From: Pycnococcus provasolii | Lineage: Eukaryota; Chlorophyta; Pseudoscourfieldiophyceae; Pseudoscourfieldiales; Pycnococcaceae | DNA: 64,000 nucleotides | Direction: 5' to 3' | NCBI GenBank assembly: GCA_938743325.2 | Contig: OW568871.1 | Span: 186,001-250,000 of the forward strand | Shown here: positions 58,286 through 63,076 of the stretch, in pieces | Layout of the letters: every line of letters starts with the position of its first letter | Position numbering within the stretch: the first letter of the stretch is position 1 | The notes under the pieces: generated by a model | Told to the model about the DNA's origin: nothing | The model's database searches: none | What the model saw: only the letters and a program-made list of their open reading frames with translations | Program-made: the position numbers and the translations under genes

Positions 58286-60517
58286 TCACGACGCGTGCGC
58301 GCCGCGTGCAGCCGCGCGGCGCTTCAGCTCGCCCTGCCGAACATTTAGTGACCGTAACTCCGCGAGAATGAGCGCCTCCTCCGCACTGCGATCCACAGCC
58401 GCCGCCACGTCGTGGATGTCCACTCCGCCGCGTGACGACTTCGACGCACCCACGCGAGGGGAGCAGTGTGCGCTGTCGACATCGGACACCTGGCAGCCAA
58501 GTTTCTCCAGAGATCGCTCGAGACGCGCAACCTCAAGACTCAGCGTCGTCGGCGCGGGTGATGCAGCAGAGGGACCCCAGCGCGAAGGTACCGCAGGTGG
58601 TTTCGAAGAAGACGACGACGCTGATGTCACCGGCGCCATAAAGCGAGCGGGTGGGGGTACGGGAGTCTGCGCCTTGCCCGCGGCGAGAAGCTCGCGCGCC
58701 ATCCTTGCCGCCTTCGTCTCCGAGAAGCGCACAATACCGCCGCCTGTCAACGCAGAGGGCAGGCGTTCAGGCTCCGGCTCTGGCTCCGTAAAGCGGGCAA
58801 TTGCGCTGCTTGCCCTTGCCTGTGCGGGAACTGGCACGGGAACAGGAGCTGGCGCGGGTGCCGCAATCGCAGGAAGATGGCTTGCCGTTGCCGTATCCGT
58901 GCCGTCCGCTGGCATTGGCGTTCCGCCAACCATTCCGCGCGTCGTCCGCACGGCGCGGTATCGTGCAGCCGCAGCCGGCGCTGAGACTGGTGCATGCGTC
59001 TTGCGGATGACAACTACCGTCTTCTGCACGGGTCGTGCACGCACCGCTGGTTGAGGCACCGGCAATGCAGCACTGGAATTCGGAGATGCAGTGACAGCAG
59101 CGTGAACTTGTGGGCGTGCACCACGAGCGGGCAAGCATGGAGGCGGTGGCGGTGGCGGTGTTGCGGCGACTGCAGGGCGTCGGCGCTGCGCTGCCTGCAT
59201 GCGCCGTTCGCGCTCGGCGGCGGCGGCCACAGCGGCTGCGTACGAGCCTGCAAGCAACGGTGGTGCCTCGTATGCGGTGCTAGCTGGCGAAGCACTGCCG
59301 CCACCGCGCACAGCTTGCGCCGGGGCTGGTGTGCGACATACCGCGGGCGGCGGTCCCTCGTATGCGGTGCTAGCCGGCGATACACTTCCGCCGCCGCGCA
59401 CAGCTTGCGCCGGGGCTGGTGTGCGACATACCGCGGGCGGCGGTCCCTCGTATGCGGTGCTAGCCGGCGATACACTTCCGCCGCCGCGCACAGCTGGCGT
59501 CGGGGCTGGTGTGCGAAATACCGCGGGCGGTGGTCCCTCGTATGCGGTGCTAGCCGGCGATACACTTCCGCCGCCGCGCACAGCTGGCGTCGGGGCTGGC
59601 GAGGTAAACGCTGTCGTGACGACAGCGGGATTCCTTGGAGTTGGGGTGGGTGGATGTTGTGCGCACGCCATAGCTTGCGCGTCAAAGTCAGCAGGTGCAG
59701 GTCTTCGTCGACGCGGCGGCGTCATTCCCGTCCCGGCGTTTCCCGCCAGCTGCTTCAGAGGCGTCTCCTCTGCCACCACGGCTTTGCTTGCCGCCACGTC
59801 GCGACGCACCGCGCTCAAGATACTTGTGCATGGAGCCGTATGTTCTGTACACGTCCAAGTGGGCACTTTTTTCCTTTGCGGCGACGCGGGCGGAGACAAA
59901 TGTCGAGCTGGTTGGTCCTGGAAAAGCTCCCTCTGCGCCGGCTTCGGAAGGCTGTGTTGCCACCGCGTGTTGTCGACGTCGACTTCCACCGTGAGCGCGT
60001 TTTCCTTCTTCGCCTGCGCAGTTCGTACCTGTGCTGGCGGTGGCAAGTCCGCGTGCGCGATGCGCGCGCGTACGTGAGCCCGTGCGGGTGCCGCAACCAC
60101 CGGCGCGGCGTCGTTGTTCCTCGCGTACGTCGTTTTCTTTTCAGCATCTTCGCCTGGGTAGCACGCCTTGAGCATGTTCTTGAGCCTGTTCACCGCTCTT
60201 GACCTTGGCCCTTGCCTGAAGTACAGGTTACTTTTTTGTTCCTCCCTGCGTGCGTCGAGCGCCTCTTTCTCCTTCTTAGTCTTCTCCACCTCCTCCTTGA
60301 GCGTCTTCGCGGCGTACATGCGTCTTCTCCGCCGCGTCTCTCGTGCCGCTTCGCGGAGCCGAGACGAGGCGTCGTTCATTACCACATGACCAATGTTAGC
60401 TGAAAGACGAGGCATAACCATACCAACCGAATTGACTGGCCCAACCATACCAACCAAACCGGCCGCCGGTAAACCACACGCTGGCCCAACCACACGGTCA
60501 ACGGGGTGAGGCAACAT
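58286..60517 (-). CDS. Repeat-rich low-complexity protein with helical N-terminus, unknown
   Basis: A 743-residue frame from ATG 60517. Residues about 48-120 are charged and helical: RLREAARETRRRRRMYAAKT, LKEEVEKTKKEKEALDARRE, FRQGPRSRAVNRLKNMLKAC. The middle (about 300-430) has four copies of a 30-residue unit TPAPTPAVRGGGSVSPASTA-YEGPPPAVFR (90-bp DNA repeats). The rest is Ala/Pro/Arg-rich. A late segment LSLEVARLERSLEKLGCQVS and a C-terminal helix SAEEALILAELRSLNVRQGE LKRR-like end it. The charged ends look genuine and are unlikely by chance; the middle is disordered. A cytoskeletal or centrosomal linker would fit but is guesswork. I recognise no family. Confidence 0.55.
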   Translation of the reverse strand: MLPHPVDRVVGPACGLPAAGLVGMVGPVNSVGMVMPRLSANIGHVVMNDASSRLREAARETRRRRRMYAAKTLKEEVEKTKKEKEALDARREEQKSNLYFRQGPRSRAVNRLKNMLKACYPGEDAEKKTTYARNNDAAPVVAAPARAHVRARIAHADLPPPAQVRTAQAKKENALTVEVDVDNTRWQHSLPKPAQRELFQDQPARHLSPPASPQRKKVPTWTCTEHTAPCTSILSAVRRDVAASKAVVAEETPLKQLAGNAGTGMTPPRRRRPAPADFDAQAMACAQHPPTPTPRNPAVVTTAFTSPAPTPAVRGGGSVSPASTAYEGPPPAVFRTPAPTPAVRGGGSVSPASTAYEGPPPAVCRTPAPAQAVRGGGSVSPASTAYEGPPPAVCRTPAPAQAVRGGGSASPASTAYEAPPLLAGSYAAAVAAAAERERRMQAAQRRRPAVAATPPPPPPPCLPARGARPQVHAAVTASPNSSAALPVPQPAVRARPVQKTVVVIRKTHAPVSAPAAAARYRAVRTTRGMVGGTPMPADGTDTATASHLPAIAAPAPAPVPVPVPAQARASSAIARFTEPEPEPERLPSALTGGGIVRFSETKAARMARELLAAGKAQTPVPPPARFMAPVTSASSSSSKPPAVPSRWGPSAASPAPTTLSLEVARLERSLEKLGCQVSDVDSAHCSPRVGASKSSRGGVDIHDVAAAVDRSAEEALILAELRSLNVRQGELKRRAAARGAHAS
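59256..59615 (-). repeat. 90-bp minisatellite (four copies) in the Pro/Ala-rich protein
   Basis: The core TATGCGGTGCTAGC(T/C)GGCGA starts at 59271, 59361, 59451 and 59541, exactly 90 bases apart. The copies differ at a handful of bases, and the second and third are identical over most of the unit. Confidence 0.92.
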
Positions 60518-61126: not shown

Positions 61127-63076
61127 TTACGCAACAATACATCCACACGCCGCTTTGCATCTTTCTCGTCTGAGTCGTCTTCTCTGAGCTTCATCAGCAA
61201 GGCGAATTTGCTTGAGATCTTCCTTGAGGTTTTTCAGATATGTTATCACGTCGTCAGCGTCGTTCAACGCGTCACGTACTATGAGTCCGAGCTCTCGATC
61301 GCCCTGCTCGCGACGCTTACTTTCGAGCGCCTCGCGCTCAAGCTGCTCCGCCTCGTCGTACTTGCCTTGAAGCTTGAGCAAAGTAGCGAGGTTGTTGACG
61401 GAGGCTAACGTATTCGGGTGCGCATCGCCGAGCTCGCGACGACGACCGTCAAGCGCCTCGCGAAACAGCGGCTCCGCATCGGCGTACTTGCCTTGATCTG
61501 CGAGCAAAATCGCGAGGTTGTTGATGGAGCCGAGCGTGTCTGGATGCGCATCGCCGAGCTCGCGACGTCTACCGTCAAGCGCCTCGCGAAACAGCGGCTC
61601 CGCATCGGCGTACTTGCCTTGGTGATGGAGCAAGCCCGCGAGGTTGTTGATGGAGGCGAGCGTGTCCGGATGCGCATCGCCGAGCTCGCGACGACGACCG
61701 TCGAGCGCCTTGCGGTACAGCGGCTCGGCGTCGGCGTACTTGCCTTGATCGCTGAGCAAGCTCGCGAGGTTGCTGATGGACGCGAGCGTGTCCGGATGCT
61801 TATCGCCGAGCACGCGACGATGACCCTCGAGCGCCTCGCGCTTCAGCGGCTCCGCATCGGCGTACTTGCCTTGATCGCTGAGCAAGGTAGCGAGGTTATT
61901 GATGGACGTAAGTGTGCTTGTATGCGTATCGCCCAGCTCGCGACGATGACCGTCGAGCGCCTCGCGGCACAGTGCCTCTGCCTCGGCGTACTTGCCTTGT
62001 TGCCAGAGCAAGTTCGCGACGTCCATCAACAGCTTAGATGTCGCTCGTTTCTCCACATCCAGTGTATCCAACGCACGAATCGCACTCTCAACGACCCAGC
62101 TTCGCATCTGATCTTTGATGCGCTTGTTGACCTCCGACGCACCACCTGGATACACTTTCACCGCATTGAGAATGGCGTCACGGTCCTCCGCTTTCCACGC
62201 CTCGGCACGCTGCACGTCCATGCCGACCATCTTCACAGTCACCTTATCTGCGCCCTTCTCCACCAAGAAGTCAGCGAACGCCTTCTGCTCCACCGCCGGT
62301 AAGCAAATCTCTAGTTTCGCCTTGCCGTCATCAATCGTACTCAGAATCTCCCAGATACACCACGCGCGCGTCAGCGGGATCGGATCGTCCCAAGGCATCA
62401 AAATCAGCACGGTGTGTCCGATGCTCGCGACCGCCTCCTTGAACGTCGTGAACCACCAGTCGGGCGGCACTTGCAAGCTCGCGTGCTGGTTGACTGTGAA
62501 CACGTCGAACCATACGTATGCATTCTCGGAGAGGCTGCCGAGCGCGTCGACGACATTCACGAATGTGTACTTCCATGCGTGCGACACGAATACCGTCGCG
62601 TCTTGCACTTCCGCAGGTTCTGTGTTGCTGAGCATCTCTGCGTAAGACGTTTTGACGTGTTCGGTTGCAGGCTTGACAATACCAAAGCACAAGTCGTTGG
62701 TCGTCATGAGCTCGAACGGGATGTCGACATACTGCACGTTCGTGGGTTTTCCGTCGCCGTCCTTGCCAGCAGCATTCATGCGCGTGCGGTGCTCTTGCAA
62801 GTTGTCTGTGGTGATTTGCACGACGACGTCTGCCCCTCCGCCATGTTCCGCCTTAAGGAAGTCCTTCGAAGACCACGTATACTTTTTCTGTTTGCATGCG
62901 TCGACAAATTGCCTCAGCCACGCTAGACGCACGCCACGTCGCGGGAACACTTGCGTGTTTTCCTCCTCCGAAGTGTATGATGTTGATGTGTCTCTCCTTC
63001 CGGCAGCATTGGCGTCGTCCGGGTGTGGAGACAGGGACGCCGGCGCCAGCGCGGGCATTGGCGCGACACGCGACAT
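61127..63076 (-). CDS. TIR-like (FVSHAW) domain plus kinesin-light-chain-type TPR protein with CaaX end
   Basis: A 649-residue protein from ATG 63076. After a short N-terminus and an unassigned region (45-150), residues about 158-270 form a TIR-like fold: DATVFVSHAWKYTFVNVVDA, AYVWFDVFTVNQHASLQ, DWWFTTFKEAVASIGHTVLI, LMPWDDPIPLTRAWCIWEIL. The pattern strand-SHAW, WFD-x-F, QH, W-x-x-x-F and LTRAWCIWE is common in algal and protist multidomain proteins. Six TPRs of exactly 42 residues follow (about 350-600) with GKYADAEPLFREALDGRRRE LGDAHPDTLASINNLA-type units, as in kinesin light chain and NLR-like TPR arrays. The tail is basic (RRRLRRERCKAACG) and ends CIVA, a CaaX box with upstream Cys. It should be lipid-anchored. 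A sensor or scaffold role is inferred. Confidence 0.8.
   Translation of the reverse strand: MSRVAPMPALAPASLSPHPDDANAAGRRDTSTSYTSEEENTQVFPRRGVRLAWLRQFVDACKQKKYTWSSKDFLKAEHGGGADVVVQITTDNLQEHRTRMNAAGKDGDGKPTNVQYVDIPFELMTTNDLCFGIVKPATEHVKTSYAEMLSNTEPAEVQDATVFVSHAWKYTFVNVVDALGSLSENAYVWFDVFTVNQHASLQVPPDWWFTTFKEAVASIGHTVLILMPWDDPIPLTRAWCIWEILSTIDDGKAKLEICLPAVEQKAFADFLVEKGADKVTVKMVGMDVQRAEAWKAEDRDAILNAVKVYPGGASEVNKRIKDQMRSWVVESAIRALDTLDVEKRATSKLLMDVANLLWQQGKYAEAEALCREALDGHRRELGDTHTSTLTSINNLATLLSDQGKYADAEPLKREALEGHRRVLGDKHPDTLASISNLASLLSDQGKYADAEPLYRKALDGRRRELGDAHPDTLASINNLAGLLHHQGKYADAEPLFREALDGRRRELGDAHPDTLGSINNLAILLADQGKYADAEPLFREALDGRRRELGDAHPNTLASVNNLATLLKLQGKYDEAEQLEREALESKRREQGDRELGLIVRDALNDADDVITYLKNLKEDLKQIRLADEAQRRRLRRERCKAACGCIVA
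61350..62010 (-). repeat. 126-bp TPR-coding tandem repeat, six copies
   Basis: CTTGCCTTG, the GKY/QGK codons, recurs at 61361, 61487, 61613, 61739, 61865 and 61991, always 126 bases apart. Middle copies share long identical stretches, far above the level needed to keep the TPR fold. Confidence 0.93.

Follow-up and report, generated by a model that had tools for sequence, protein, structure and literature searches.

A TIR-Like/TPR Gene of the Green Alga Pycnococcus provasolii and a Candidate NLR-Like Repertoire with Hypervariable Repeats

Introduction

To our knowledge, immune receptors are little known in green algae that lie outside the land-plant lineage. The question is raised here by a gene of Pycnococcus provasolii located in a 64,000-nucleotide stretch of genomic DNA (hereafter the window; C11:186001-250000), in which an original prediction had recognized by eye a TIR-like domain, TPRs, and a C-terminal CaaX box, a layout that it likened to innate immune sensors. 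Does this gene encode a receptor of that kind, and do the three elements together define a family? We analyzed the coding frame, its relatives in the same genome (32.33 Mb, 46 contigs), and homologs from other algae. The own-genome search returned at least 77 matches, and 68 of 101 candidates were scored, so that the counts of family loci given below are lower bounds.

Layout of the Coding Frame

The layout was confirmed as predicted: SHAW at residues 165-168, WCIWE at residues 239-243, 42-residue TPRs at exact spacing, and the final CGCIVA all belong to one frame (table 1). This frame, for which no strand had been given, is on the minus strand, runs from ATG to stop, and ends in CKAACGCIVA. 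Its length compares with a longest stop-free run of 270 aa (mean 144) in 500 base shuffles of the 3 kb around it, read in three frames, and GC at codon positions 1, 2, and 3 is 0.64, 0.42, and 0.69. The N-terminal domain was modelled over residues 40-147, and a comparison with PDB gave no convincing match for it. An Rfam scan of the whole window returned zero matches. The neighboring frame (58286-60517, minus strand, 743 codons) is Pro/Ala-rich, contains near-identical internal repeats (AVRGGGSVSPASTAYEGPP), and has no Pfam match even at E = 10.

Table 1. Features of the TIR-like/TPR gene, in window coordinates
Feature	Position	Strand	Basis
Complete coding frame (one uninterrupted frame of 649 aa)	61127..63076	-	Translation; one of at least 13 module-bearing loci (own-genome search)
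Low-complexity N-terminus (MSRVAPMP...), residues 1-43	62948..63076	-	Alignment; type common to L002 and L010 (RVVPLP)
N-terminal alpha/beta domain, residues 44-150, preceding the TIR-like domain	62627..62947	-	AF2 model, pLDDT 92.1
TIR-like SHAW domain, residues 157-300	62177..62608	-	
SHAW motif, residues 165-168, at the TIR box 1 position	62573..62584	-	Invariant in 67 rows; aligns with FISH of canonical TIR
Glu243 codon in TRAWCIWE, equivalent of the TIR NADase Glu	62348..62350	-	Invariant in 67 rows; aligns with Glu of YCLKEL (canonical TIR_2)
Six 42-residue TPR units, residues 334-585, the first divergent; groove positions hypervariable	61322..62077	-	Pfam and repeat analysis
Gene-specific charged tail, residues 590-649, including the basic run RRRLRRER and two additional Cys	61130..61309	-	Alignment; single genome occurrence
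CaaX box CIVA, residues 646-649	61130..61141	-	Rule-based motif

A TIR-Like Domain with an Invariant Glutamate

Because a Pfam scan of the protein found no TIR family up to E = 1, we call the domain TIR-like rather than TIR. The call made by eye holds both by predicted fold and by profile: the modelled structure of the SHAW domain falls into the TIR alpha/beta fold class, with about 7-16% identity in structural alignments with NADase-active TIR domains, and hhalign gave a probability of 92.1 against eight own-genome TIR_2 loci, in an alignment that matches box 1, box 2, and alphaC. The check that had been proposed for the NADase Glu also came out positive, since E243, which is invariant in the 67 aligned rows, lies within the alphaC helix of the model and aligns with the TIR Glu. 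We take this residue to be the counterpart of the Glu in the W-x-x-x-E motif of SARM1 and RPP1. Model and alignment thus support an NADase-type position for E243, at which NAD+ might be cleaved. The genome also encodes canonical TIR_2 domains: at least 16 exceed the cut-off, their open frames being 315-2099 codons long, and for a picoalga this is a sizeable set of TIRs.

One Proposed Effector Module, Several Candidate Sensors

An uninterrupted TIR-like-TPR frame containing WC[IV]WE is retained by at least 13 loci (L001-L013, window gene included). Ten of the 12 others share 77-84% of their residues with the window protein, and L012 and L013 share 60% and 50%, respectively; broken copies also occur (L015 is truncated and L017 contains stops). 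L012, which has WCVWE and no literal SHAW, ends in a SUMO/ubiquitin-like domain (Rad60-SLD, 1e-18).

In a sister group (group B), an N-domain and a TIR-like domain 35-40% identical to those of the window protein are followed by a NACHT-like P-loop and WD40 repeats. All five group-B frames or pieces that were scanned matched NPHP3_N (9e-14 to 6e-15) and scored below the cut-off for NACHT itself, and 14 WD40 stretches were matched in each of three frames. L040 combines the TIR-like module with NPHP3_N and ankyrin repeats. Of the 16 NPHP3_N matches in the genome, 15 are within loci of the TIR-like module and the remaining one is at C3:515915. The N-terminal piece of group B found no match among PDB sequences at E ≤ 0.01. 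A further combination is seen in L009 (C44; pieces L047 and L055), whose single 2099-codon frame starts with MGCAPS and continues with a canonical TIR, then a helicase-like P-loop (matching ResIII and SLFN-g3 helicase), the SHAW domain, and TPRs.

The effector module common to the TIR-like-TPR loci therefore also heads NACHT-WD40 and NACHT-ankyrin (NLR-like) proteins, so that the window gene shares its effector with the NACHT proteins of its genome. Pfam detects NPHP3_N, NACHT, or NB-ARC nowhere in the window gene, and NB-ARC nowhere in the genome; having no nucleotide-binding domain, the window gene is not an NLR, although it may function as the sensor and effector parts of an NLR do. In a tree, TPR and NACHT-WD40 modules separate. 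As 20 of its 31 inner branches are open and L012, probably badly cut, sits on a very long branch, this tree is a rough guide only. A prokaryotic or viral origin was also considered: when contigs of viruses and of prokaryotes were scanned by pattern, 43 and 81 matches, respectively, came up and none was confirmed, which is weak evidence of absence given how narrow the patterns are.

Two side observations concern genome structure. Three group-B genes (L032 and L038 on C23, L043 on C3) lie within near-perfect inverted repeats, one arm holding the full gene and the other, beyond a spacer, a second N-terminal half. The arms (3.7 kb and 99.7% identical around L032, ~2.1 kb and 100% identical for L038 and L043) could be partners in gene conversion or, alternatively, a feature of the assembly. 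Besides, a repeat dispersed over several contigs, at least 3.5-4 kb long and with 98.6-98.9% identity among the three copies compared (L044 on C5, L045 on C4, and L046 on C3) and also matching on C2, C13, C15, and C31, carries a truncated TIR-like gene start (open frames of 227-238 codons). It may be a mobile element with a captured receptor fragment; the L044 copy is flanked by a 176-bp inverted repeat.

Putative Lipid Anchors and Calcium Modules

The window protein ends in a C-a-a-X sequence. The genome contains a single copy of its last 77 residues, the next match having an E-value of 0.09, and the CaaX tail is therefore private to this gene. One of the 12 other loci has a CaaX-like box (L010, CAIV), and a Cys at position -4 is found in 9 of 153 SHAW relatives, without clear enrichment over positions -2, -3, -5, and -6 (8, 6, 7, and 4). 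CaaX as a family trait is thus rejected, and with it a family defined by the exact trio of the original prediction, whereas the TIR-like fold and the NADase-type Glu position are supported. Homologs lacking the tail, which the prediction had named as counterevidence, do exist; homologs of obviously unrelated function, which it had named along with them, did not turn up.

Other loci carry other modules. Pfam finds EF-hand pairs over the cut-off in L003, L005, L007, and L011. N-terminal MG motifs are present in L004 (MGCGAS, Met31), L006 (MGCGTS, Met42), L008 (MGCGAS), L009, and L013 (MGGACA); as the Met positions of L004 and L006 are counted in the frame read from its first Met, a start downstream of that Met is needed there. 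C-terminal anchors are seen in L001 (CIVA), L010, and L002 (a hydrophobic tail, by eye), which have RVVPLP-like N-termini in common. Among the motifs looked for (anchors and EF-hands), 12 of the 13 loci show one module and none shows two, L012 being the locus without a membrane or calcium module. This exclusivity is not strict in the wider family, because the relative P0007 combines an MGCGAS start with a CNIM end. Of 175 homolog matches, 153 have SHAW and 145 of these a plausible start; 54 of the 145 start with MG, with a Ser at position 6 in 47, figures that relatedness inflates. Judging from these motifs, membrane tethering does seem to recur in the family, mostly via the N-terminal MG motif, and NMT is present in the genome. 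The genome also has two PPTA alpha genes and one ICMT match, and Rab GGTase beta is the only Prenyltrans beta subunit found, in a search that could miss a spliced or divergent one; CaaX prenylation in this alga is worth attention.

Hypervariable Positions in TPR and WD40 Repeats

The TPR families are the only Pfam matches of note in the window protein (TPR_12 at 7e-80; TPR_10 in six stretches of 42-residue units). NCBIfam matches were all below cut-off, and PADLOC gave one weak match, within the TPR region. Successive units are 59% identical at the DNA level in the first pair, then 84%, 86%, and 90.5%: like those of NLR/STAND proteins, these are superstructure-forming C-terminal repeats with high internal identity. 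Their number shifts between close relatives, as in L011 with 10 pattern units against five in P0009, although their N-terminal parts are 94% identical and their tails the same, and in L002 with five against eight in P0002. L008 and P0006, an NCBI "Pycnococcus provasolii" record 98.9% identical to L008 over 437 residues, have five each.

To compare units of the DIVERSIFYING repeats, 70 TPR units of 42 codons were collected by pattern from 11 of the 13 loci, L009 being outside the scan and L013 and off-pattern units being dropped. Six positions (10, 13, 20, 23, 24, and 42) carry 51% of the nonsynonymous differences. The same six are recovered from three disjoint gene sets, and five of them from the five pattern units of the window gene alone; each of the 70 units has a unique combination at the six. 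With a numbering offset of 11, chosen to fit the conserved A8/A20/A27 pattern, positions 13, 20, 23, and 24 become TPR positions 2, 9, 12, and 13, all of which belong to the seven groove positions that PMC1261162 names. At the six positions, which were picked from the same data, piN is 1.94 times the whole-unit piS, and at five paper-derived helix-A positions it is 1.65 times that value (1.32-2.16 in 40 gene bootstraps).

Could these repeats simply amplify and homogenize without any recognition function, while surface positions drift? Groove positions vary in TPRs at large, truncated and broken copies exist, and the site-local piN/piS of the six positions is 0.97. With this ratio, we do not claim formal positive selection at TPR sites. 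However, piN at variable positions exceeds whole-unit piS throughout (ratios of 1.65-2.89), and the WD40 codons described below match a spacing named in fungal work, which makes neutral expansion very unlikely; selection on the groove positions is indicated, not proven.

For the WD40 repeats, 102 units were compared. They come from 11 loci, of which three are cut by the end of the locus; positions 4, 5, 7, 23, and 25 vary most, and the pairs 5/7 and 23/25 flank an invariant V6 and a near-invariant D24. In fungal HET-D/E-type genes, codons 7, 9, 25, and 27, which flank the conserved 8 and 26, are described in PMC1805685 as being under positive selection. The algal variable codons thus reproduce this pattern shifted by two, all four shifted fungal codons being within the algal top five (hypergeometric p 4e-5, or about 0.002 if any of 42 shifts is allowed, as the two-codon shift was chosen after seeing the data). 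At the fungal-matched codons, piN is 2.87 times the whole-unit piS (112 units, looser pattern).

Relatives in Other Algae and Rival Explanations

Among the candidates scored, which were those with most shared words, group-B relatives were recovered from records of P. marina and of P. provasolii. Others come from volvocine algae, for which 31 rows are listed, including the query and one row without species name. They cover Chlamydomonas schloesseri, C. incerta, Gonium, Volvox, Edaphochlamys, and one C. reinhardtii protein (P0193), which is named "flagellar associated protein" and has SHAW, RGWCIYE, WD40, and a precomputed NPHP3_N.

This name, together with the kinship of the repeats, raises the possibility of a lipid-anchored ciliary or vesicle cargo adaptor similar to nephrocystin-3 or kinesin light chains, in which the TIR-like domain would be a structural protein-protein module. 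The best PDB sequence matches of the window protein are kinesin light chains, in the TPR region; TPR_NPHP3 reaches 113.2 bits over a cut-off of 100, and the group-B P-loop is itself of the NPHP3_N type. Human NPHP3 is N-myristoylated and ciliary, and we liken its N-terminal MG motif to that of the algal relatives. It is for this sequence kinship and the C. reinhardtii name that we keep the adaptor as the chief rival. Yet a family of 13 loci, ten of the other 12 at 77-84% identity, with hypervariable repeats in unequal numbers would be unusual for a conserved adaptor, and the invariant WCxxE Glu and the exchange of the effector module among TPR, NACHT-WD40, NACHT-ankyrin, and helicase-like genes also speak against it; we consider it unlikely.

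A second rival retains the proposed anatomy and changes the ligand, which would be a protein variant of a conspecific, as for fungal HET-D/E, instead of a pathogen, in a system of allorecognition or mating compatibility. One volvocine relative contains VWLDILCVNQ, which resembles the HET motif. The WD40 codons share the HET-D/E spacing, and section 16 of PMC4986451 links HET and TIR domains and mentions choanoflagellate and green algal relatives. Pfam HET, on the other hand, has zero matches in the P. provasolii genome, as in the equally silent control genomes, and the computed results do not separate self variants from pathogen ligands. We regard this alternative as improbable, slightly more so than the adaptor.

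In the literature searched, largely outside subscription journals, we found no publication on the TIR-like-TPR form or on diversifying repeats of green algae. PMC4773052 reports NACHT-WD40 proteins in C. reinhardtii, and PMC8891106 a different kind of green algal gene, the APAF1_C/WD40 gene of Ulva, whose knockout had no phenotype.

Proposed Function

We favor, with somewhat better than even confidence, a TIR-type effector that is tethered to a membrane and coupled to a TPR sensor undergoing diversification, and that would trigger defense or regulated cell death. The lipidated tail, via the CaaX box in the window gene and via an N-myristoyl-type MG start or a tail helix in relatives (others having an EF-hand pair instead), would fix the protein at a membrane. 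The TPR groove would bind a non-self or modified-self protein or peptide, and such binding would cluster the TIR-like domains, which could then cleave NAD+ via E243 or recruit other TIR proteins, either event setting off the response. The immune-sensor-like layout originally proposed is supported indirectly, by the NACHT-WD40 and NACHT-ankyrin genes that the module heads and by the hypervariable binding positions of the repeats.

The large gene set has the look of a rapidly changing system by which a unicellular alga recognizes non-self. More tentatively, and with a little less than even confidence, we propose that this alga has a combinatorial NLR-like repertoire, in which one TIR/HET-type effector is joined to exchangeable sensors (TPR, NACHT-WD40, NACHT-ankyrin, or the helicase-like protein with its canonical TIR) and to membrane or calcium modules that are likewise exchangeable (a myristoyl-type start, CaaX, a tail helix, or EF-hands), the repeats diversifying at the codons of fungal allorecognition genes by convergence or shared ancestry. 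If so, the TIR-effector and diversifying-repeat design of fungi, plants, and bacteria would also work in free-living phytoplankton, the hypervariable WD40 and TPR codons would gain a second, independent kingdom, and the volvocine relatives, including that of the model C. reinhardtii, would allow the design to be tested.

Comparison with Known Systems

The window protein has the 42-residue, KLC-type TPR of nephrocystin-3 and kinesin light chains, and its sister group B the NPHP3-type P-loop; we know of no TIR-like domain in NPHP3 or KLC, nor of hypervariable multigene families formed by them. With NADase TIRs (SARM1, RPP1, RUN1, AbTir, and ThsB) it shares the predicted fold class and a W-x-x-x-E Glu at the same place, while differing by its low identity, its SHAW box 1, its extra N-terminal domain, and the absence of a Pfam TIR match. 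Bacterial TIR-TPR proteins of group 6 (PMC7075850) also have an N-terminal TIR and C-terminal TPRs, but are mainly actinobacterial, with unconserved boxes 1-3 and no lipid tail mentioned in the text available. Among algae, the C. reinhardtii NACHT-WD40 NTPases (PMC4773052) also unite NACHT with WD40; they are not of the TPR form of the window gene, and the accessible part of that paper mentions no N-terminal TIR-like domain. The Chondrus crispus NB-ARC-WD40 proteins with TIR (PMC7145615) likewise join TIR, a nucleotide-binding domain, and WD40 in an alga, but in a red one and with the NB-ARC type that we did not find in the P. provasolii genome.

A close parallel is with the fungal HNWD NLRs (HET-D/HET-E, HET-NACHT-WD40, and their ANK/TPR relatives), as portrayed in PMC4986451 and PMC1805685. 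The algal family differs in belonging to a green alga, in the TIR-like-TPR form without NACHT found in the window, and in its lipid anchors and EF-hands. In both, a TIR/HET-type N-terminal domain is placed on NACHT with WD40, ANK, or TPR repeats, the repeats (42-residue TPR and WD40 in the alga) are internally near-alike and unequal in number, and four WD40 codons of equal spacing are among the most variable.
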